64,000 nucleotides of DNA from Novilysobacter antarcticus (GTDB lineage: Bacteria > Pseudomonadota > Gammaproteobacteria > Xanthomonadales > Xanthomonadaceae): contig NZ_JAIEUJ010000002.1 in NCBI RefSeq assembly GCF_019802285.1, positions 496,001 to 560,000 of the forward strand, read 5' to 3'. The position numbers and the translations under genes are program-made. A model generated the notes under the pieces. The model saw only the letters and a list, made by a program, of their open reading frames with translations. It searched no databases and was not told the DNA's origin. Positions 29,267 to 53,843 of the stretch are shown in pieces; positions within the stretch are counted from its first letter, which is position 1, and every line of letters starts with the position of its first letter.

Positions 29267-30193
29267 TCACCAGCTGCCCGAGGCGCCACCGCCTCCGCTC
29301 ATGCCGCCACCGCCGCTCCATCCACCACCTCCGCCCATGCCGCCACCACCCCACCCACCGCCGCCACCGCCCCAGCCGCCCCCACCCAAGCCACCGAATC
29401 CGCCCCGGCGGGCGAAGCCACCACCGCCGGAACCGGCGAGAGCGAGCACCAGCCCCATCACGGCGCCGATGCCGCCGATCACCAGCAACGAGGACAGCAG
29501 CCATGCGACGCCGCCTGCTGCGGCCGCTCCGGCCACGCCGCGTATGGGCTTGGGCGCACGGCCGAACATTCCCGCCACGACCCGCGCCACGATGAAGGCG
29601 GCCATCAGCGCAAACAGCCAGTTCCCGTCTCCCGTCTCCGGACGGTTGTCGGCCATCGGTGCCGGCAGGGGTTCGCCGTCGATCAGGTTGGCCAGTGCAG
29701 CAGTCGCCTCGACGATGCCGCCGGCATAGTCGTCGCGCCGGAAGTGCGGCACCAGGTATTCCTGGATCACGCGGCTCGCGGTGGCATCCGGGATCGCTCC
29801 CTCCAGGCCATAACCCACTTCGATCCGCGCCCGGCGGTCGTCCTTGGCCACGATCAGCAACACACCGTCGTCAACCTTGCCGCGGCCCAGCTGCCACTCG
29901 TCGTACACGCGAGTGGCGTACTGGGCGATGTCCTCCGGCGAGGTCGTGGGCACAACCAGCACCTGCAGCTGGCTGCCCTTGCGATCACGCAGAGCCACCG
30001 CCTGTGCTTCCAGTTGCTGCCTTGTCCCCGCGTCGATGGTTCCGGTGGTATCGACCACTGGCGAGTCCAGCGTCGGAATTGGTGCGAACGACTGCGCGTG
30101 CAGCACCCCAGCCGCGAAAAACAGCGCCAGCAGACACGCCCACCACGGCAGCGAGCGAAAATATCGTCGCCCAGCCGCGCCTGCACATCGCAT
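29267..30193 (-). CDS. Exported TPM-domain membrane protein with Gly-rich tail (YgcG-like)
   Basis: About 309 residues. A signal sequence (L-P-W-W-A-C-L-L-A-L-F-F-A-A-G, ending near L-H-A-Q) is followed by a TPM domain (about 35-175, with V-V-D-T-T-G-T-I and K-V-D-D-G-V-L-L-I-V-A-K-D-D-R), two hydrophobic segments (about 190-260), and a tail made largely of Gly, Ser and Trp. This layout is typical of YgcG proteins found beside lemA. It likely sits in the inner membrane with the TPM domain in the periplasm. The start M-R-C-A-G at 30193 is chosen for the signal sequence; further open frame upstream has no similarity. Confidence 0.82.
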   Translation of the reverse strand: MRCAGAAGRRYFRSLPWWACLLALFFAAGVLHAQSFAPIPTLDSPVVDTTGTIDAGTRQQLEAQAVALRDRKGSQLQVLVVPTTSPEDIAQYATRVYDEWQLGRGKVDDGVLLIVAKDDRRARIEVGYGLEGAIPDATASRVIQEYLVPHFRRDDYAGGIVEATAALANLIDGEPLPAPMADNRPETGDGNWLFALMAAFIVARVVAGMFGRAPKPIRGVAGAAAAGGVAWLLSSLLVIGGIGAVMGLVLALAGSGGGGFARRGGFGGLGGGGWGGGGGGWGGGGMGGGGGWSGGGGMSGGGGASGSW

Positions 30194-42003: not shown

Positions 42004-42525
42004 TCACGCTGCGGCGGATAGTGTCTCGACGATCAGCGTCTCGACCGACACCAGGTCCGGCACGTAGGCGTCGTCCTCATTCAGGCGCACCGCGGCGAGC
42101 ACCATCGAGGGCAGCTCGCCGGGGTCGCCCGTCGTTTCCAGAGTCGCCCGCGACACGGTCACCAACCGGGGAAACCCCTGGCTGAGGATCGCGAAATACG
42201 GCGCCTTCGTATCACCGGCCAGTGCCTTCAGCACCAAGACCTTGCTGTTCATGGTGCCTTGTTCGTCGGCGATCCCGGCGAGCCGGGCGAAGCCGATCAA
42301 GGGGACCTGCCAGCCACGCCAGCGGGTCAGGCCGAGCAGCCAGTCCGGCGCCCCGGCCACCGATTCAGGCGGCGCAAACGACATCACCTCGGCCACCGTG
42401 GCGTTGGGTAACAACAGACGTGCGCCCGCGACCTGGATAAGCACGCCGCGGATGTCCTGCCCGGGGCCGTCCGCCGGCGCAGACCCGTTGCGGTCGTGAA
42501 GTGCTGTTGCGGAATCATTCGACAT
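42004..42525 (-). CDS. CheW-like coupling protein of the Pil-Chp system (ChpC-like)
   Basis: A 173-residue single CheW domain: V-L-I-Q-V-A-G-A-R-L-L-L-P near 28, W-L-L-G-L-T-R-W-R-G near 62 and I-L-S-Q-G-F-P-R near 112. CheW domains couple receptors to the kinase. It is the last gene of the cluster, nine bases after the CheB-like gene, matching the position of ChpC in Pseudomonas aeruginosa. It may link extra receptors to ChpA. Confidence 0.83.
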   Translation of the reverse strand: MSNDSATALHDRNGSAPADGPGQDIRGVLIQVAGARLLLPNATVAEVMSFAPPESVAGAPDWLLGLTRWRGWQVPLIGFARLAGIADEQGTMNSKVLVLKALAGDTKAPYFAILSQGFPRLVTVSRATLETTGDPGELPSMVLAAVRLNEDDAYVPDLVSVETLIVETLSAAA

Positions 42526-42534
42526 CGTTCTTCC

Positions 42535-44028
42535 TCAGTCAGGCCAGCGTTCGGCCAGTCGCTGCGCCAATTCCGCGGGGGTCGCGGTTTCACCACCGCG
42601 CGAGGCCAAGGATGCGGATGCGGTGGCGTCGTAGCAGCCATCGGCGGACTGACCGGCGACCAGCGCGCCCGCCCAGCCAAGCCGCAGGCTTGCATCCACC
42701 ACCGACGGGTCGGTGCCACTGAGCAACAGCACTGCACTGTCACTGGCCGGCAACGCGGCGACCAGCTCGCTACCAGCGTGAAAGCGGATTCCGGCATCGC
42801 TGACATCGATGCCCAGACCATCGGCCAGGATGTAGACCGTGCCGGCCATCGCGTACTGGTCGGCTTCGGCAAGCCGCACCGGCAGCTCGGTGGCGCGCTG
42901 CATCTGCGCCACGAGCCGGTCATGACGCCCACCGTCCAGGCGCTGCTGGATCAGGATCGGGCGCGGGAACTCCGCCGGCAATGCCGCGACGAGTTGTCGA
43001 ACCGCATCCGGACCACCAAGACCGGCGAGCACAAGGACCGCGCCACGCGCAGTCTCGGGCTCCTTTTTGGGTGAGTCGTCCACCAGGCTCAAGCCGGCGA
43101 TTCGCTCCTCAAGCTCGTCGATATCACGGGCGAAACGCGCGTCGGCACCCGCCGACTCACTGGCCGCCAGCGGGGTGGAGCCGTCGTCCAGGCTAAGCAC
43201 GCCAAAGCGCCCTGATGAGCCGGGGTCCTGTTCGAACGCCGTGCCATCCACGGGCGTCTGCGCGATGGTGGACATGTCCGGCTCGTAGCCGGCTTCCAGC
43301 GGCGGAACCGCCGGATCGGGCTCTGCTGCGGATGAGGGCTGCCCACCGGTGCCCGCGGCCAAAGTGACCTCGACGTCAGCCGGATCCTCGTACTCGACCA
43401 TCGGATCCAGGCTCAGGCTCAGATCCAGTCCGTCGGCGACGTCGCCTGGCGCGAAGGCAGGAACCTGGGCCGACTCGTCCTCCGCGGTTTCCGCGAACAC
43501 GGGATCAAACGGATTGATCGTGTCCACGGCCTCGGAGGCGACCGTCTCAATGGGCTGGGATGGCGAGGCCGACCAGGCGTCCGCTTGAACCTCGGCGCTG
43601 CCCGGTTCGGCGGCAACCCCGACGGGACGCGGCGGGCTCGACGTCTCTGGTGCTTCCTGCTCGGTTCCGGGCGGTAGCACGTCGCCATGGCGCTGCATCT
43701 TGGCCACCAGATGCCGCTGCCAGCGCGCCATGTCCCAGCCCTCGCGCGCCACGGCCAGGCTGGCCTCCTCGTAGATAACCTCCAGTTCGGGGTTCGCCAG
43801 CATCTCGTCGAACGCTTCCAGCGCGTCCTCGGTCTGCGGGTCCAGCGCCACCAGCACGACTTTCGCGCCGCTCGCCATGACGTCGGCCGGATCGATGTCC
43901 TGCGGGTCCGACTCCAGCGCACATTGCGCGCCTGCCGCGTCGATCACCTCGCGCAGCCGAGCGCGTGCCGCACCCTCGCGCGCCAGCAGGGCGACCTTCA
44001 AGGGATCACTGCGCATGGCGGTTTTCAA
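42535..44028 (-). CDS. ChpB-like protein with apparently inactive CheB methylesterase domain
   Basis: A 497-residue protein in the ChpB position. Residues about 8-110 resemble a receiver domain but I see no convincing phosphoacceptor Asp. Residues about 115-310 are acidic, low in complexity and probably disordered. The C-terminal domain (about 330-495) follows the CheB fold order: [10 protein letters not shown], then [14 protein letters not shown], then [10 protein letters not shown]. In CheB these places read G-A-S-T-G-G-P and V-Q-H-M; here the nucleophile Ser and the catalytic His are not found. It is therefore probably a scaffold rather than an esterase. It overlaps the chpA end by 23 bases. 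Confidence 0.75.
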
Positions 44029-47000
44029 GGGCGAGAAGCTCGTAGACGTTGCGCATCAATTCGGGTTCCTGATACGGCTTGCCGAGGTAGCGATCCACCC
44101 CGATCTCCATCGCACGCTGGCGATGCTTGTCCCCGGTCCGCGAAGTGATCATCACGATCGGAACGTCGCGCAGACGTGGTTCGCCCTTCATCCGGGTCGC
44201 TAGCTCATAGCCGTCCATGCGTGGCATTTCGATGTCGAGCAGCATCAGGTCCGGAACCATGTCCGCCATCCGCTCCCACGCATCCAGTCCATCGCGTGCG
44301 GTGACGACCTCGAAGTTGTGCCGCTCCAAAATCCGGCCCGTGACCTTGCGCATGGTCACCGAATCATCGACCACCATGACAAGCGGAACCGGACGCGACT
44401 CGATCGCGGCGACGGGCGCAATCGCCGCGGACAACGGCATCGACACCATGCGCCGCACCAGCGGAGCCACGTCGAGGATCACCACGACCCGGCCATCACC
44501 CATGATGGTCGCGCCGAAGATACCCGGCATCGATGCCACCTGCGGGCCGACCGGCTTGACCACGATCTCACGGTTGCCGATGACCTGATCAACCGTCACC
44601 GCGGCGTGCAGGTCTCCGGAGCGGATCAGCAGCACGGGCATCTGCAGCTGGCCTTCGGCCTTCGCCGGAGCCTGGCCGACCAGCTGACCAAGGTCGTACA
44701 CCGTGTACTCGTCACCACCGTAGCGGTAGCTGGCCTCGCGGGGCTGGCCGTGCTCGTCGACCAGTTCCTCCCGGGCGATGCGGCCGACACCGCGGACCGA
44801 GGCAATCGGCACGGCAAAGGTGGTCTCGCCGATCTTGACGAACACCGCCTGGGTGACTGCCAGCGTCTGCGGCAGCCGCAGCACGAACGTGGTGCCCTGG
44901 CCCGGGCGGGACTGGATGTCCAACGAGCCGCCGAGTTGGCGAACCTCGCTTGCGACCACGTCCATGCCCACGCCGCGTCCGGCCAGGCGACTGACCGAAT
45001 CGGCCGTGGAGAAGCCCGCCTGGAGGATCAGCGAGTGCAGCGCGAAATCGCTCAACACCGCGTCGGCCGCGATCAGGCCGCGCTCCCCGGCGCGGCGACG
45101 GATCGCCGCACTGTCGAGTCCGCGACCGTCGTCGCTGACCTCGAGTACCACTTCGGAGCCTTCACGCCGGATGGCGATTCGGACCGTACCTTCCTCGGGC
45201 TTGCCTGCGTTGCGTCGCTGCTCGGGCGTCTCCACGCCGTGCGCGATGGCGTTGCGGAGCATGTGCTCCAACGGCGCCGTCATGCGCTCGAGCACGTTGC
45301 GGTCCAACTCGCCCTGCGCGCCATCGAGTTTCAACGCGACCTGCTTGTCCAACTCGCCGGAGGCCTGGCGGATGACCCGACGCAGGCGCGGCAACAGGCC
45401 ATCGAACGGCACCATGCGGGTTCGCATGAGGCCTTCCTGGAGGTCGGAACTGACCCGCGACTGCTGCAGCAGCAAGGTCTCGTACTGGCGGGTCAGATCG
45501 TCCAGGGTGACCTGCAGGCTACTCTGGTCGGCGGCTGATTCGGACAGGCCGCGCGAGAGCTGTTGCAGGTTGGAGAAGCGGTCCAGTTCCAGCGGATCGA
45601 AGGTCTGCTCGGCGTCCTCACCTTCGCGCTGATAACGCGCGACGATCTGGGCTTCGGTCTCCATCTCCAGACGGCGCAACTGGTCACGCATGCGCTCGTT
45701 GGTGGCCGCCATTTCCCCGATCGCGCCGCGGAATGCACCCAGCTGTTGCTCCAAGCGCGCGCGATAGATCGCGACTTCACCGGCGTAGTTGACCAGCCGG
45801 TCGAGAAGGTCTGCACGGATGCGCACCTGTTCCTGCGGCGCGCGGATGCCGATCTCGTCGTCGTCATCCTGCTGCTCGACGATCGGCGCGGAAAGCGGGC
45901 CGAGGTCGATGGTTTTGTGGATCACCTGCGCAACCGGGACCGCGCTGTCGACGTCGTCGGGGGCGTCCTCGGATACCGACGTCTCCGGCAACTCGGGCGA
46001 GTCGGTTTCCTCCGACGGCGCCGGGTCTGCCACCTCGCTGGTCACCGGGGAATCCTGTATCCATTCGGCAGCGACAGGCGCCACTGCTTCGGACCCCAGC
46101 TTTCCAAGCGCCTCCACCGAGGACTCGACGGGTTCTGGAAGCGTCGCTTCGCCGCTGGCGCGCGCTTCAAACTCGTTGATCAGCGCAGCCGGCATCGCGA
46201 TCGCGCGGCGATCACCGACACGCGTCAGCATGGCGTGCAGGCGGTCGAATCCACGTTCAAGCAACGGCACGCCGTCGCTGCCGAGCTCCGACGTCTGTCC
46301 GACCACCGCTTCCAGCAGCGACTCCATGACGTGGCCGAGTTCGCCGACTTCCATGATCCCGCACATGCGGGCGCCGCCCTTGAGTGTATGCAGGTCGCGC
46401 TGCAGACCTACCAGGAGTTCGTCGTCGCCGGGGCTCTCGCGGAGCTGGGCCAGCAGCGAGTCGGAGTGGTCCAGCAGGTCGCTGCCCTCCTCCACGAAGA
46501 TGTCGATCAGCTCCGGGTCCAGGTCGCTCAGATCGAGCGGCTCATCGGGATCCTCGACCGTCGCGAACGCGGCGGACGCAGCTGCAACGATCGGCTCTGC
46601 GCTTGCGAGAACTTCCGCCAGCCCGTGATCCGAATCGGCCTCGGCCGGCGACTCGGAGGCCGATGCGATTTCCGGCATTGGCTGCGGTGCAGACGACTCT
46701 GCGTCGGCGCTGGGTTCGTCTGCTTCCGCAACCTCGGCACCGGAGCCTTGGGCGTGGTCTTGGAGCGCAGTCCGCTCAGCCTCGTACTGCGCCTCAAGGC
46801 GTGCATATTCGGCGGCGTCTTCGGCTTCGATCCGCTCAGCTTCGAGCCGCTCAGCTTCGATGCGCTCGGCTTCGAGCCGCTCGGCTTCGATCCGCTCGGC
46901 CTCGATCCGCTCAGCTTCGATTCGCTCGGCCTCGACCCGCTCAGCCTCGACCCGCTCAGCTTCGATCCGCTCAGCTTCGACCCGCTCAGCTTCGACCCGC

Positions 47001-50000
47001 TCAGCTTCGATCCGCTCAGCTTCGATCCGCTCGGCTTCGATCCGCTCGGCTTCGATCCGCTCGGCTTCGATCCGCTCGGCTTCGATCCGCTCGGCCTCGA
47101 TCCGCTCGGCCTCGATCCGCTCGGCCTCGATCCGCTCAGCTTCGATCCGCTCAGCTTCGATCCGCTCAGCCTCAATGCGCTCAGCCTCGAGCCGTTCGGC
47201 TTCGATCCGCTCGGCCTCGACCCGCTCAGCTTCGACTTGCTCAGCCTCGATCCGCTCCGCTTCGAGCCGCTCGGCCTCATTCCGCTCGGCCTCGACCCGC
47301 TCTGCGGCCGTCTCTTCCACAGTGGCTTCCGCACCTTCCTCTTCCGGCGCGACGTACGGAGTGAGGTTGACCACGGAGGGGCCAACAGTCGGCTTGCCGG
47401 GCAGCGGCACTTCCGGATCGGCCACGTGCTGCGTGCGGACATCCGGAAGACTGTCGCGCAGTGCCACCAGCTGCTCGGCAACCCCGGCAAATGCCGGAAT
47501 CCGCGGATGGCTGGACTGCAGGGCCGTCAAGGTTTGCTCGACCGCCGCACAGACCGCCGCGATGCCGGCAACGCCCTCGGCACTGGCGGGTTCTCCGGCG
47601 GCCAGCAAGCGGCGTACGTACGCTTCGGCGGGGGTGGTGATGTCGGTGATTACCGGCACTTCGGTCATCGCGAAGGCGCCGTTGAGCGTGTGGATGGCGC
47701 GTTGCAGGCGATCGTCCGCGGGCTGCGGCATCAGGCGAGCCTCGTTCAGCCACTGATGCATGGTCTCCAGATGGCCGGCAACCTCGCTGCCCAGGATCTC
47801 CAGCAGCACGGCGTCGACCGATGCCGGAATACCCTGCTCCAGCCCCACCTCTGCGTCCACGGCCGCCGGCTCCGAAGCGATGTCATCAGCCGCAGGTTCG
47901 GCAACTTCGGGCACAACCGCTTCTTCTGCGGGCGCGGTATAGAACGCTTCCTGGCCTTCGGCGATCCGGTCGGCGACCGCTTCCAGACCCGCAAGGTCGG
48001 CGGTAACGGTACCGGTGCCCGCCAGCGCCGCGTGCAATTGCGGCAGGGCAGCGTGCGCGTGCTCTACCAGCGCCACCACGGCGGGACTGGCCAATCGGGT
48101 TCCGCCGAGCACGCCGTTGAGCATGCTCTCGACTTTCCAGCTGAATTCACCCAGGGTCCTGGCGCCGACCAGTCGGCCGCTGCCTTTAAGCGTGTGGAAC
48201 ACGCGGCGGATGCCGCGCAGCTGCTCCATGTTTTCCGGGGCGTGGCGCCACTGCTCGAGCATCCTGCCGAGATTGGTGATTTCCTCGTCGAGTTCTTCCA
48301 GGAAGACTTCACGGATTTCGTCGTCGATGTCGTCGCTTTGCGCGAAACCGTCGGTGCCGTCCAGCGCTGCGACAGTGGTCACCGCTTCGCTGTGCGCGTC
48401 AGACGACGGGATGGAGGATGCCTCCGCGGCCTCCTGCGAAAGAACCTCATCTGCGCTTCCGGAAACCGGCGGTGAGATCGATGCCGAGGCCTCCAACGGG
48501 ACCTCGCTCCGGCGCGGCGCATCCATCTGGCGCGCCTTGGCGGCCCACTGGTCGAGAGCGGCGGCAGCATTCTCTTCGTCTTCCTCCGACACCGGCGAGG
48601 ACGGCTGCTCCATCTCGGCCTGCTCGCCGGGCACGGGCCAATAGCCCAGTGCCTCCAGGCTGTAGCGCGCGATTTCAAGGATGCGATCGCGGTTGGGGCG
48701 CTGCTCGCGCAGCGCCTCCAGGTAGTACTCGACGCTGGCGAGGGCGTCAGCCAGGGTGTCGAGCTGCTTGCCGTGCGGAACCCGATTGCGGCCGATCAGC
48801 TCGACTTCGATGTAGCGTTTAACCCCGTGCAGGTAATCCGCCGGCAGGTGGAGATCGAGGATGCGCAGTGCGCCGCAGACCTCATCGAGCAGGCGCGGGA
48901 TTTCCACCAGTTCGGCGTGATCCCAGTTGGTTTCAACGAAGGCGACGAAGGATTGGCGGGCGTCACCGAAGTTGCCGATCGCCTCGCGCACCACCACTTC
49001 AAGCACCTTGCGCGACTCGCTCTCGAGCAGGTCCTTGTCGGCGCGCTCATCCGACAGGCCCAGGCGTGCAACCTGGTCGTCCAGCGAGGTCTCCACGTAC
49101 AACAACGCGCCGGCCACATCCAGCAAGGCCGATTCGTCGGCGGCGCGGTTGCCGGCGACGATCTCGTGCATCGCGTCGCGCTGCTGCATCACCACGCCGC
49201 GCGCGACGCCCAGTCCCATCATTCCCAGGGTGTCGCTGACCCGACCGAGGGCATCGACCTGCGGGCGCAGGTCCTCGACTCCCGTCTGGCCAGTGCGCAG
49301 GTGGAGGTCGAGGGCATCCTTGACCCGCAGCAGGTCTTCCTTGATCGCCGCCGACACGGTGTCCAGCAACGCCCGGTTGCGGCCGCTCAGGCTGCCGCGG
49401 GCGTGATCCAGCTCCGATTCCGACGGCAGCTGGCTGTCCAGTTCGAAGGTCTTGCGCAGGCTGTCCAGAGCCGGATGCCCGCCGTCGCTGTGGGCCACGT
49501 GATAGAGCAATTGGCGCGTCGGCTCGGCGTTGGGCTCGATGCCGGGAACGGTGAAATCATCACGCATCAATTGGCGCGCTTCGCGCTCAACCCCGCCGAA
49601 TGCTTGGCGCAGGGCGCGGGTCGCGGGCAAGGCACCGTCGCGCAGCGCGCCGGCCACCGAGGAGGCCACCCACAGCATCCGCCGCAGCGGCTCCACCGAG
49701 ACTTCCGCCAACAGGCCATCCACCACTTCCGCCAGTCGGGCCGGATCGGCAGGCTCGCCGCCCTCCGGCCACTGCGCCATTGCCTCGCGCAAGCCCGTCA
49801 GGTTGGCGCTCAGCGGCTGCACACCGGTGCGGATGGTCGGAGATTCCTCGACGACCGGCGCCGGCAGGTCGCCGGGCAGCGGGCGGTCGAGGTTGGGCGC
49901 GAACAGGACGCTTTCGTTCAAACCCGCCTCGCCGCGCGTGGCGCGAAGCTCGTTGAGCAGCGGCAGCAGGACGATGGGAATGTCGCGGTGCCCACCCTGC

Positions 50001-50326
50001 AGGCGCTCCAGGTAGTCGGGCAGCTGGACGGCACCGCGCATCAGGATCGTGCACGCGACGTCGCGGTTGGCGATCTCGCCGTGCAGCAATCCCAGAGCGA
50101 GCCGCTCCATTTCCTCGGCGACCATCGCCGGCGCGTACAGCTCCACCATGCGCAAGGTGCCGTGCACCTGGTGCAGGTGACTGGCACACACGCGCATCGC
50201 CTCGCCATCATCGGGCGATTCGGCGTAGGCCTCGATCTGCTCGCGCGCCTGGCGCAGGGTCTCGTCCAGCTCCGGCTTGATCCAGCCCAGCGTGGTGGTG
50301 TCGATTGCATCGCGCATCACCGTCAT
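44006..50326 (-). CDS. chpA: Pil-Chp chemosensory hybrid histidine kinase (ChpA/PilL)
   Basis: About 2106 residues, the central kinase of twitching-motility signalling. Several histidine phosphotransfer domains are visible: H-Q-V-H-G-T (near 52), H-T-L-K-G-S-G-R (711), H-T-L-N-G-A-F (879) and H-T-L-K-G-G-A-R (1313), plus Hpt-like repeats that lack His (G-A-L-L-Y-V-E-T and D-E-V-C-G-A-L). The CheA core follows: dimerisation and ATPase ([19 protein letters not shown]), a CheW-like domain, and a receiver (V-V-D-D-S near 1985, phosphoacceptor Asp about 2031 in L-L-D-I-E-M-P). Between Hpt domains (1009-1169) lies an array of the pentapeptide E-A-E-R-I. M-T-V-M-R-D at 50326 is the likely start; earlier ATG codons exist to 50353. 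No pilK lies between pilJ and this gene. Confidence 0.93.
46820..47302 (-). repeat. 15-base tandem repeat array inside chpA (about 32 copies)
   Basis: The coding-strand unit is GAGGCCGAGCGGATC and close variants, encoding E-A-E-R-I with I sometimes V, L or N. About 32 units run without interruption for 483 bases. The central copies are nearly identical in DNA, while the edges vary, a pattern of copying and slippage. The peptide should form a long charged single alpha-helix linking two phosphotransfer regions. Because the unit is a multiple of three, copy-number changes keep the reading frame. The repeat also keeps other frames open, making large false ORFs. Confidence 0.95.
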
Positions 50327-50417
50327 GGCGCGATGCTCCATTGCGCTGCGCACTTACGCAGCGGGTGCAGGCGTCGGCCGGCGGTCATGCTGTTCATCCT
50401 TCGATCCAATGCGGGGC

Positions 50418-52439
50418 TCAGGCAGGAAGCGTGAAGTCGGCGACCGAACGACGCAGGTCGGAGGCCATCTGCGCAAGGTTGCCAATCGACTGCGCGGTCT
50501 GGTTGGCACCCTGCGTGGTCTGCGAGGTGATCTGCTGGATCGTGTTCATGGTCTGGGTGATGTTGGCCGCCGCACCGGACTGCTGCTGCGACGCCAGCGA
50601 GATGCCCTGGATGAGTCCGGACAGGTCGGAGGAGACCTTCTCGATCTCGCCCAGCGCGGTGCCGGCGTCCTCGGCCAGGCGCGCACCGGCGACCACCTCG
50701 GTCGTGGTCTGCTCCATCGAGCTGACCGCCTCGTTGGTATCGGCCTGAATGGCCTGCACCAGCGACTCGATCCGCTTGGTCGCGTTGGACGAGCGTTCCG
50801 CCAGCCGCTGCACTTCGTCGGCCACCACCGCGAACCCGCGGCCGGCCTCACCGGCGGATGCCGCCTGGATCGCCGCGTTGAGTGCCAGGATGTTGGTCTG
50901 CTCGGAGATGTCGTTGATCAGTTCAACGATCGAGCCGATTTCCTGCGAGCTCTCGCCCAGCCGCTTGATGCGCTTGGACGTTTCCTGGATCTGGTCGCGG
51001 ATCGAGTCCATGCCCTGGATGGTCTGGCGGACCACGCCCGCGCCGGCGGTCGCGATCTGCACCGAGCGCTGCGCCACGTCGGCGGACTCGGCGGAGTTGC
51101 GTGAGACCTGGTCGATGCTGGTCGCGATCTCGCTGATGCGGCTGGAGGCGGAAGTGATCTCCTGCGCCTGGTGCTCGGCGGCCTCGGCCAGGTGCATGGC
51201 GGTGGCCTGCGTTTCCTGTGCGCTGGACGCGACCTGCACCGAGGTGTCGGTAATCGTCTGCACCAGGGTGCGCAGCTGCTCGATGGCGAAGTTGATGGAG
51301 TCGGCAATCGCGCCGGTCATGTCCTCGGTCACCGTCGCCTTAACCGTCAGGTCGCCTTCCGCCAGCGAGCCCATTTCATCCAGCAGGCGCATGATCGCCT
51401 CCTGGTTGCGGTCGTTGAGTTCCTTGGTGGTGGTGTACCGGTCGCGCTGCGCTTTGCTCAGCGAGAACAGCAGACCAACGATCGCGGCCAGGGCGAATGC
51501 ACCGGCAATGATGGACACCCACAGGTTGCCCAGCAGGCTGGGGTCCTTCAAGGTGCCGAGCGCGTTGAACGCGTTGAACAGCGACTCGCTGTCGGCCAGC
51601 AGCTTGTCGGAGCCTGTCGTGATCGCGTCAGCCGCCGCCTGGGCCGCAAACAGGTCCTGGGAGGTCGCCAAAATCGCGTCCAGGTCGGTCTTCATGGTTT
51701 TCCACAGCGCTTCGGCCTGGGCCAGCGCAGCTACCGCGCCCGCGTTCGCCAGCGGGGTGATACCGGTCGCCTCGTCGCCGTTGCGCAGGCCGGCCAACAC
51801 GTTGCCGAACACCGCCGCGTCACGCGCCAGACCTTCGCCCGCCGCTTCCGCGTTGCGCCCGCCGGCGCGGATCTCGGTCACGCGGCGGGCCATGGTGCCC
51901 GACAGCACCACCTGGCGCAGCGCGTAATAGACCTGCGAAGACGGCGAGCCGCTGGCAGACATCGCCCGCACCAGCTCATCCAGGCGCGCCTGCAGGTCGG
52001 GGACCTGCTGCTCGAAGCTGTTGGCGTTGGTCGCCAGGCCCAGTACCGCCTTCTCGCTGGCGATCAGTTGCTCGGCGCTCTTGTCCAGCGGCGCCCAGGT
52101 CTTGGTGACGGTCGCGATGGGACCCGACACTCCGGGGGTGTCGCCGAAGGTGGCGTTGAGCTCGTCAATGTCGGAAACCACCTCGCCCTTGGTGGTCTTG
52201 AATGCGGCGTAGGCGGCCTCATCACCGCTGACCGCCTCGCGTCCCTGCACCGCCAGACGCTGCGAGGCCACCTGCAGGCTGCTGGCCGACGATCCGGCGC
52301 CACTGAGCAAGCTGGCCTTGTAGGTGGCGTAGCCCACGTTGAGCGCAAGGACGAGTACGGAAATGCCCAGCACCACGAGCCAGGTGTTGGAGCCAACGGT
52401 ACGGCCCTTGCCGGCGACGGAATTCATCTCAGTGCTCAT
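50418..52439 (-). CDS. pilJ: Type IV pilus methyl-accepting chemotaxis protein PilJ
   Basis: About 673 residues. Two transmembrane helices (about 20-40, [14 protein letters not shown], and about 290-315, [14 protein letters not shown]) flank a periplasmic PilJ-type sensory domain. A HAMP region and the MCP signalling coiled coil follow, with the hairpin tip [15 protein letters not shown] near 530. It senses pilus or surface contact and signals through PilI to ChpA. The ATG at 52439 has GAGGT upstream and overlaps the pilI end by 11 bases; M-N-S-V at 52427 is an alternative. Confidence 0.94.
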
Positions 52440-53064
52440 GATCGACCTCAATTTCGGTGCTGGCGTGGTTTTCGGTAGCGGACTGCTCGACCCGTGGGGT
52501 ATCGAGCGCTGCGTGTCGGAACTCGGGGGTGCGTGCCAGCCGGTCCAGGCTGAAAACGCCCCAGGTGTGCTCGCCCAGACGGTAGGCCCGGTCGATGAAG
52601 TACGAATAGCGACCCTCACCCAGACCCGACGCGCGGACGGCCTCGGGGTCGAGCTGTGACTCGTTGAAACTGCGCTGGCCGAACAACTCGTCGATCAGGA
52701 CCGCCACGTCACCGCCGGGCTGGCGGACCAGCAGCATCCGCTGGCCTTCGTGGAGGACCGTCCGCTCGCCTTCCAGGAAATGCTTGAGGTCGACCACGGG
52801 CAGCAGGTTTCCGCGCACATTGGCCAGGCCCAGCAGCCAGGGCTGGGCACCGGGCACAGGCGTGGCCTGCGGCAACGGCAGGATTTCCAGCACTTCGTCG
52901 AAGCTCGACGCCAGACGACGCGAGCCCACGCGGTAGCCCACCCCGCGCCACATCCCGGGAGCATCCAGCTGCTCGGGCAGGCCGGCGACGTGGTCCAGGC
53001 TGCGACGCTCGTAGTCGTGAAGGATGGCGAACGGGTCAACCCGCTCGATGCCCGATGGACTCAC
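52429..53064 (-). CDS. pilI: CheW-like coupling protein PilI
   Basis: A 211-residue protein (P. aeruginosa PilI about 178) with one CheW domain: V-G-Y-R-V-G-S-R-R near 42, [18 protein letters not shown] near 76 and a V-L-I-D-E-L-F-G segment near 121. It couples PilJ to ChpA. A charged tail of about 30 residues is extra. Its ATG overlaps the pilH stop by four bases. Confidence 0.9.
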
Positions 53065-53426
53065 GGGCCGAGCAACTCGTTGATGCGCGCAACCAGTTCG
53101 TCCTCGCGCGGCGGTTTGACGATGTAGTCGCGAGCGCCCTGGCGAAGGCCCCAGGCCTTGTCGGTCTCCATCCCCTTGGTGCTGACGATCAGCACGGGAA
53201 TGGTGCTGGTCTTCTCGTCACGCGACAGCGCGCGGGTCGCCTGGAAACCGTTCATGCCGGGCAGGATCACGTCCATCAACACCAGGTCGGGCTGCTCGCG
53301 GCGGCAGATCTCGATGCCGTCCTCCGCATTCCCCGACACCAGTACGTCGTGTCCGTTGCGCTCCAGCAATTGGGTCAGGACCGCCGTATCCGTCGGCGAA
53401 TCCTCGATCAGCAGAATGCGTGCCAT
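53061..53426 (-). CDS. pilH: Twitching motility response regulator PilH
   Basis: A 121-residue single-domain receiver. The acidic pair is I-E-D-S near 7, the phosphoacceptor Asp is in L-V-L-M-D-V-I-L-P near 52, and the conserved Lys is in V-K-P-P near 104. In Pseudomonas PilH is thought to act with retraction or as a phosphate sink for ChpA. It lies 18 bases after pilG and overlaps pilI. Confidence 0.92.
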   Translation of the reverse strand: MARILLIEDSPTDTAVLTQLLERNGHDVLVSGNAEDGIEICRREQPDLVLMDVILPGMNGFQATRALSRDEKTSTIPVLIVSTKGMETDKAWGLRQGARDYIVKPPREDELVARINELLGP

Positions 53427-53444: not shown

Positions 53445-53843
53445 TCAGGCGTTGACGTGTGTTCGTATGGCGTCGAGGAGTTCCCCGCGCGTGAATGGTT
53501 TGGTCAGGTACTGCTCGGAGCCGACGATGCGGCCCCGCGCCTTGTCGAACAGGCCGTCCTTGGAGGACAGCATGATCACCGGGGTGCTTTTGAACACCTG
53601 GTTGTTCTTGATCAACGCGCAGGTTTGATAGCCATCCAGGCGCGGCATCATGATGTCGACAAAGATGATCTGTGGCTTCTGGTCCGCGATCTTGGCCAGT
53701 GCCTCGAAGCCGTCGGTGGCGGTCACCACTTCGCAGCCTTCGCGCTTGAGCAATGTTTCAGCGGTTCGCCGGATGGTCTTGGAGTCATCGATCACCATGA
53801 CTCGCAACCCATCGAGGCGGCCGCTGCGGACCTCGTCTTGCAT
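53445..53843 (-). CDS. pilG: Twitching motility response regulator PilG
   Basis: A 132-residue receiver without an output domain. M-V-I-D-D-S-K-T-I-R near 16, the phosphoacceptor in I-I-F-V-D-I-M-M-P near 62, and T-K-P-F near 113 are clear. PilG takes phosphate from ChpA and promotes pilus extension and cAMP synthesis in Pseudomonas. The ATG is preceded by GGGA at six bases. It heads the cluster and has a good sigma-70 promoter about 60-90 bases upstream. Confidence 0.93.
   Translation of the reverse strand: MQDEVRSGRLDGLRVMVIDDSKTIRRTAETLLKREGCEVVTATDGFEALAKIADQKPQIIFVDIMMPRLDGYQTCALIKNNQVFKSTPVIMLSSKDGLFDKARGRIVGSEQYLTKPFTRGELLDAIRTHVNA

Follow-up and report, generated by a model that had tools for sequence, protein, structure and literature searches.

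A 15-bp tandem array in chpA of Novilysobacter antarcticus encodes a predicted charged helix that probably serves as a permissive tether

The stretch of DNA analysed here (the window) comprises 64,000 nucleotides of the Novilysobacter antarcticus genome (NZ_JAIEUJ010000002.1, positions 496,001 to 560,000) and carries a long 15-bp tandem array within chpA, the gene for the CheA-type kinase of the Pil-Chp system. A reading of the window from its letters alone (the original prediction) had proposed that the array forms a stiff helix whose length sets the distance between phosphotransfer domains. Our comparisons among relatives and structure predictions are consistent with the helix and argue for a permissive tether rather than a ruler.

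Results

The 15-bp array and the chpA locus

Tandem Repeats Finder (TRF) reported the array at 46824-47302 with a period of 15 bp, 31.9 copies, 87% matches, no indels and a score of 622, and the runner-up among the seven rows of its output for the window scored 118. The array is in frame in a minus-strand open reading frame (ORF) of 2115 amino acids (aa; 50353-44006). It encodes ChpA residues 1016-1177 and lies between two phosphotransfer domains, Hpt3 (about aa 848-968) and Hpt4 (aa 1281-1379), which agrees with the original prediction of about 32 copies of a 15-base unit between such domains. The DNA of the linker joining Hpt3 and Hpt4 had a lag-15 self-identity of 0.644, far above that of 1000 codon shuffles (mean 0.345, standard deviation 0.016, maximum 0.400), and the array is therefore not a product of chance.

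The encoded unit is E-A-E-R-(I/V/L). Glu and Arg had been said to alternate, which is not strictly so: the 183-residue helix region described below contains 69 Glu and 33 Arg, with a net charge of -37. Among units 2-32 (31 units), the main variation was found at codon position 3 of the first Glu and of Ala and at position 1 of the hydrophobic codon (I/V/L), and the Glu, Ala, Glu and Arg residues were altered in one unit (Arg to Gln). The central copies had also been described as nearly identical, which is roughly right, with runs of identical adjacent units reaching four and a longest exact repeat of 62 bp in the linker. Unit similarity was 0.882 at lag 1, 0.861 at lag 8 and 0.818 at lag 20; adjacent units are little more alike than units far apart. 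An assembly artefact is unlikely for the window array, given the short longest exact repeat and the arrays also present in the single-contig relatives G002, G003 and G006. On the plus strand, an ORF of 970 aa (45563-48475) runs antisense across the array and probably arises because the repeat unit has no stop codons in that frame.

Pfam placed several Hpt domains together with dimerisation, ATPase, CheW and receiver domains in this one chain, and placed a receptor, two CheW-like proteins, two receivers and a CheB among its neighbours, as ChpA should have (Table 1). The neighbours lie in the order of a pilG-pilH-pilI-pilJ-chpA-chpB-chpC cluster. Elsewhere in the window, three overlapping GC-rich tandem repeats with periods of 18, 21 and 36 bp occupy 29284-29396.

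Table 1 Features of the chpA locus, with positions in the window (gene names of the neighbours are presumed from position).
Feature	Positions	Strand	Basis
CheW-like gene (presumably chpC)	42004..42525	-	PF01584
CheB-type methylesterase gene (presumably chpB)	42535..44028	-	PF01339
chpA, Pil-Chp CheA-type kinase, 2115 aa, GTG start	44006..50353	-	ORF; Pfam Hpt x4, H-kinase_dim, HATPase_c, CheW, Response_reg
Receiver domain, aa 1992-2102	44048..44380	-	PF00072
CheW-like domain, aa 1835-1967	44453..44851	-	PF01584
HATPase_c, aa 1694-1830	44864..45274	-	PF02518
H-kinase_dim, aa 1508-1563	45665..45832	-	PF02895
Hpt4, aa 1281-1379, adjoins kinase core	46217..46513	-	Pfam PF01627
Predicted disordered joint, about aa 1199-1247	46613..46759	-	pLDDT under 50, construct 354-379 and 381-402
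Predicted single helix, aa 1017-1200, about 27 nm; array and conserved patch	46754..47305	-	AlphaFold2, construct 172-355
Conserved patch EYARLEAQY, aa 1182-1190	46784..46810	-	Regular expression, HMM, shuffles
15-bp tandem array, EAERI pentads, 31.9 copies	46824..47302	-	TRF score 622
Predicted disordered joint, aa 976-1016	47306..47428	-	pLDDT under 50, construct 131-171
Hpt3 (IHTLNGAF), about aa 848-968	47450..47812	-	Taken as the fragment's second PF01627 stretch; weak match to the Hpt2 segment; helix bundle in model, construct 3-123
Hpt2, aa 679-770	48044..48319	-	Pfam PF01627, E 5.6e-21, best of 2 stretches in fragment
Hpt1, aa 24-119	49997..50284	-	Pfam PF01627, E 1.3e-07
Chemoreceptor gene (presumably pilJ); ORF start perhaps too far upstream, overlaps next gene	50418..52619	-	PF00015
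CheW-like gene (presumably pilI)	52429..53064	-	PF01584
Receiver gene (presumably pilH)	53061..53426	-	PF00072
Receiver gene (presumably pilG)	53445..53843	-	PF00072

Linker types across the family and the order

The comparison started from 151 loci: the window, 80 named records (the best 80 of 313 relatives) and 70 loci from further genomes, which consisted of 10 loci of nine genus genomes and 60 genomes out of 149 searched (148 with a match). In the genome collections used, each species of this group is represented by one genome. We dropped 18 partial loci, 15 duplicates, three with N in the linker, one with domains out of order, and L126, which consists of an N-terminal half at the end of a contig and yielded no gene containing Hpt4 and the kinase core, leaving 113 distinct Hpt3-Hpt4 linkers. 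By kinase core, the nearest relative was G002, of the same genus, at 96% identity; Lysobacter concretionis was top among the 80 named records, from which records very near the window genome may be omitted. G042 was the sole family genome of the 149 without a ChpA match, though it is 99% complete, and in G107 (contig 1, 108367-109843) the ChpA kinase match crosses two open frames, owing to a frameshift or a sequencing error.

Array length in chpA is fragile in draft assemblies. Exact repeats of at least 100 bp were present in 11 of the 113 linkers, whose lengths are therefore unsure, and repeats of at least 150 bp in three (up to 497 bp, L030). Contig breaks or runs of N lay in or at the array in L009/L125 and L126 (G004), L124 and L064.

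The Hpt3-Hpt4 linker measured 121-569 aa (median 332), compared with medians of 58 and 40 aa for the neighbouring linkers. Its coefficient of variation, 0.29, was lower than those of the flanking linkers (0.47 and 0.51), so that family-wide it stands out by its length and not by its relative variability, and the contrast in variability appears among close relatives. In all 108 linkers with a TRF array (five of the 113 had none) the best period was a multiple of 3 bp, in line with the earlier claim that length can change without loss of frame. It was a multiple of 15 bp in 83 of the 113, a few of these arrays being short (L025 and L166, at 1.9 copies). When classed by composition with thresholds that we set, the linkers comprised 69 Arg-containing pentad arrays, six Arg-free pentad arrays, 15 other charged linkers without a strong pentad and 23 acidic coils. 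The Arg-free arrays include EAAAA (Arenimonas), EAIEA (L136) and VEAEA (L152); four of the coils occur among named records, in Pseudoxanthomonas helianthi, two Chiayiivirga and one Aquimonas. Other units at the same linker are a 12-residue unit in L134 and AETE in L157. On the kinase-core tree (FastTree), these states needed 18 changes, against a shuffled mean of 40.5.

We then compared ten other families of the order, in which 61 genomes were searched, 57 gave a match and 30 were fetched; the linker boundaries are less sure in these genes, as weak Hpt matches were used. None of the 30 sister-family linkers carried an EAER array. Most were acidic coils, lengths ranged from 69 to 403 aa, and some linkers had EA, VE, ETEA or VELTEP runs or, in L206, a short Ala/Glu/Arg-rich stretch. 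In L221 (G473), an ATAEE pentad array occupies the same linker, with a period of five and another chemistry. Unrelated repeat units have thus grown at this linker in other ChpA genes. The linker appears to be repeat-prone across the order, with the charged array as one branch's version.

Searching 274 genomes of the class with the array gave matches at 1e-10 in six, two of them within the family (the window's own genome and G018), E-values being soft for such sequence. The matches outside the family fell in a TonB_2-domain protein (L190), an AAA ATPase (L192), L193, whose ORF reads by eye like an efflux transporter, and L194. In L190 (G202), of another family, the same pentad forms a long, near-perfect EAERL array in an unrelated protein.

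Length change between close relatives

Close pairs were defined as those within 0.07 on the kinase-core tree (n=27, not independent). The length of the Hpt3-Hpt4 linker was equal in none of the 27, with median differences of 42.5 aa for the 22 pairs of charged or pentad type and 35 aa for the five of acidic-coil type. The flanking linkers in the same pairs differed by medians of 1 and 3 aa (charged or pentad) and 0 and 0 (coil). The window and its three closest relatives have linkers of 281, 307, 321 and 255 aa, the six pairs differing by 14-66 aa, and their longest pentad runs comprise 33, 24, 34 and 26 units. Copy number therefore varies among relatives, as had been expected, and is not identical throughout. 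Arrays of at least 10 pentads span 11 to 65 units; at 65 consecutive pentads (L030), the rod would be far longer than that of the window.

Two forms of conserved geometry were considered. A constant physical span was not shown, since a window helix of about 27 nm compares with 15-23 nm for coils of 281-560 aa, in rough estimates that rest on assumed scaling constants. A conserved helical phase was rejected, as length differences were multiples of five in just seven of the 27 pairs, although parts outside the array vary too.

Predicted structure of the linker

AlphaFold2, run on aa 846-1395 as a single chain with 26 aligned sequences, predicted one helix at aa 1017-1200 with low-confidence stretches on either side. 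The ten-residue means of the predicted local distance difference test (pLDDT) along the helix began at 63 and 83 in the two opening blocks, stood at 87-96 over construct 191-340, and fell to 77 for 341-350 and 46 for 351-360. The stretches at the two helix ends, about 41 and 49 residues long, had pLDDT under 50 and are probably disordered. The acidic linker of Pseudoxanthomonas helianthi (L076) was itself predicted to be disordered, with ten-residue means of 29-40 over construct 151-440, which indicates that not all such linkers come out helical with this method, although the control is inexact because its alignment was thinner (8 versus 26 sequences).

The hydrophobic coherence of the array was 0.06, compared with 0.64 for a leucine-zipper control, and at most 0.064 across 90-110 degrees per residue. 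At the heptad, hendecad and pentadecad angles (102.9, 98.2 and 96 degrees) it was 0.05, 0.04 and 0.03. This absence of a hydrophobic stripe rules out a coiled coil of any usual period, and the earlier remark that a pentad period does not fit a heptad coiled coil was correct. Opposite-charge pairs at i+3/i+4 exceeded shuffles (z above 2) in 83 of the 84 charged linkers, with z 4.5 in the window, and like-charge pairs were depleted in the charged linkers (median z -4.3). With a helix predicted and no hydrophobic seam, the window array is likely a single charged helix; the lack of a hydrophobic face and the excess of opposite-charge pairs make predicted single alpha-helix (SAH) its best name. The long single helix of the original prediction is thus supported, the model giving a helix and not disorder. 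A search of the PDB with the array sequence returned one weak match, collagen VI alpha 3 (E 9.3e-05), which we took as low complexity.

A helix whose length differs between species would also suit a ruler, in which array length fixes the spacing of the phosphotransfer domains and slippage tunes twitching output, and repeat number alters stress tolerance in tolA according to excerpts of PMC3477136. That step is not borne out, because the predicted joints lie at both helix ends, relatives (Pseudoxanthomonas, Chiayiivirga and most of the sister-family genes examined) have a coil in this position, and length is loose even between the window and its three closest relatives. We consider a ruler distinctly unlikely. 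The linker looks like a permissive, partly stiff tether, not a calibrated one.

Selection on the repeat unit

The residues of the unit appear to be under purifying selection. The ratio of nonsynonymous to synonymous differences between units (pN/pS) was below 1 in 54 of the 55 linkers (of 113) with at least 10 consecutive pentads, with a median of 0.22 and a value of 0.20 in the window. Codon position 3 was the most variable one in 37 of 40 arrays that were delimited on the DNA alone.

These values, together with the opposite-charge pairs enriched in nearly all charged linkers, speak against neutral drift, in which a linker tolerant of anything acidic and soluble gathers repeats by slippage and the helix is functionless. 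Drift would account for the unrelated units that share this location (EAERx, EAAAA, EAIEA, VEAEA, AETE, VELTEP, ATAEE and EA), for coil linkers that vary about as much as arrays in the five coil pairs, for the lack of any close pair of equal length, and for the weaker constraint in two Arg-free arrays (pN/pS 1.23 in L152 and 0.59 in L136). We regard it as unlikely.

A conserved patch beside the array

The segment EYARLEAQY (aa 1182-1190) adjoins the window array within the predicted helix, where pLDDT drops from 87 to 77. Its search pattern, E-[YF]-x-[RQ]-L-[ED]-x-[EQ]-[YH], matched 41 of the 84 charged linkers, none of the six Arg-free pentad arrays, none of the 23 coils and none of 5650 shuffles. 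A hidden Markov model (HMM) added five charged linkers, giving 46 of 84, and reported no shuffled linker (five per linker); one coil with an HMM score of 0.3 was left uncounted. The patch or a variant was found in all eight genus members with a complete linker (the window, L011, L119-L122, L127 and L128), and it is conserved across genera beside freely varying arrays. It was missing by both methods from 38 of the 84 charged linkers, 22 charged linkers have no Tyr at all, and we rejected the patch as a universal element on account of those 38.

The patch may serve for docking, act as a short clasp in the dimer or have been the seed of the array. If the rod displayed EYARLEAEY to a partner or for ChpA dimer pairing, the pentads would merely carry it outward. 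The 41 copies have 38 DNA spellings (the pattern itself fixes some letters), 84 of the 116 Tyr in the 41 linkers fall in the patch, its Y-x2-L-x3-Y hydrophobics lie on one face, and the 22-residue segment around the window patch has a coherence of 0.93, as high as which came 0.16% of 5000 shuffles. Yet such a docking arm is very unlikely in our judgement, given the charged linkers that lack the patch, its absence by the pattern from all 29 other linkers, the lack of any PDB chain matching the patch by sequence at E 1, and the possibility that it seeded the pentads. Clearly improbable too is a scheme in which an ancestral disordered tether was replaced in one branch by a helical rod bearing an EYARLEAEY docking patch, repeat number setting the reach in each species and rod length deciding which partner or pole structure is touched.

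Discussion

We propose, with a probability of roughly 0.6, that the array forms a single charged alpha-helix serving as a long permissive tether in ChpA. The tether would separate the N-terminal Hpt1-3 module from the kinase-proximal Hpt4 (the P1 equivalent), and the predicted disordered joints would allow movement on both sides. An acidic coil prone to repeats was probably the ancestral form of the tether, as we infer from the linker types in the family and the acidic coils in most sister-family linkers. On the Lysobacter/Luteimonas/Thermomonas side, in-frame gain and loss of the 15-bp unit may have turned the coil into a helix, with selection preserving the make-up of the unit (Glu, Ala, Glu, Arg and one small hydrophobic residue) and not the number of units.

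Several points weigh against this proposal. AlphaFold2 may over-predict helices in charged low-complexity sequence, repeat units may be misregistered in the alignment, and a single chain was modelled. With its excess of Glu (net -37) the helix would be less stable in free form, and each E-A-E-R-I unit offers a single E-to-R (i+3) and a single R-to-E (i+4) contact. Arg-pentad linkers are shorter than coil linkers (medians 320 aa, n=69, versus 433 aa, n=23), a difference that could reflect some selection on reach, and the 27 close pairs share species and follow a cut-off of 0.07 that we chose. L152 is an exception to the low pN/pS, and units were kept when at least three of five residues matched the consensus, which biases pN down. 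Strong residue constraint could itself mean a binding function and not a bare tether. Excerpts of PMC5378345 give blocks of four and four charges as the most stable SAH pattern, which is unlike E-A-E-R-I.

At one site in one enzyme, relatives thus provide a natural series: acidic coils, pentads without Arg, and charged arrays that reach 65 units, with conserved neighbouring domains. Whether the stiffness or length of a linker in a multi-domain kinase matters for signalling is therefore testable.

Like the ChpA and CheA proteins of Pseudomonas aeruginosa, the window protein is a multi-Hpt CheA with a receiver domain. It has four Hpt domains by Pfam, fewer than P. aeruginosa ChpA, for which excerpts of PMC10542144 and PMC12632253 give eight or nine. 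Long linkers around the Hpt and P2 domains of CheA are described in excerpts of PMC10542144, and the excerpts of these two papers describe no helical array in P. aeruginosa ChpA or in CheA P1-P2 linkers. Among the matches listed in literature searches, no title or abstract start concerned a repeat array or a single helix in ChpA, which is no proof of absence.

The closest precedents are SAH domains and the tolA repeat tract. TolA spans the periplasm and has an Ala-rich, helical repeat stretch with a 15-bp unit, whereas the window protein is a chemosensory-type kinase whose variation was compared between species. In excerpts of PMC3477136, copy number of the intragenic tolA repeats of Escherichia coli alters stress tolerance, with a contraction frequency of 6.9e-5; what the two share is an in-frame tandem repeat tract of variable copy number, of 15 bp and without indels in the window. 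The window array differs from SAH (ER/K) domains in its strict pentad derived from 15-bp tandem duplication, its Glu excess, its place in a chemosensory kinase and a helicity that is predicted. It shares with them the enrichment of opposite-charge pairs, the lack of a coiled-coil seam and a long Glu/Arg-rich course between two domains, and its 183 residues compare with about 200 for the longest myosin SAH in excerpts of PMC5378345.

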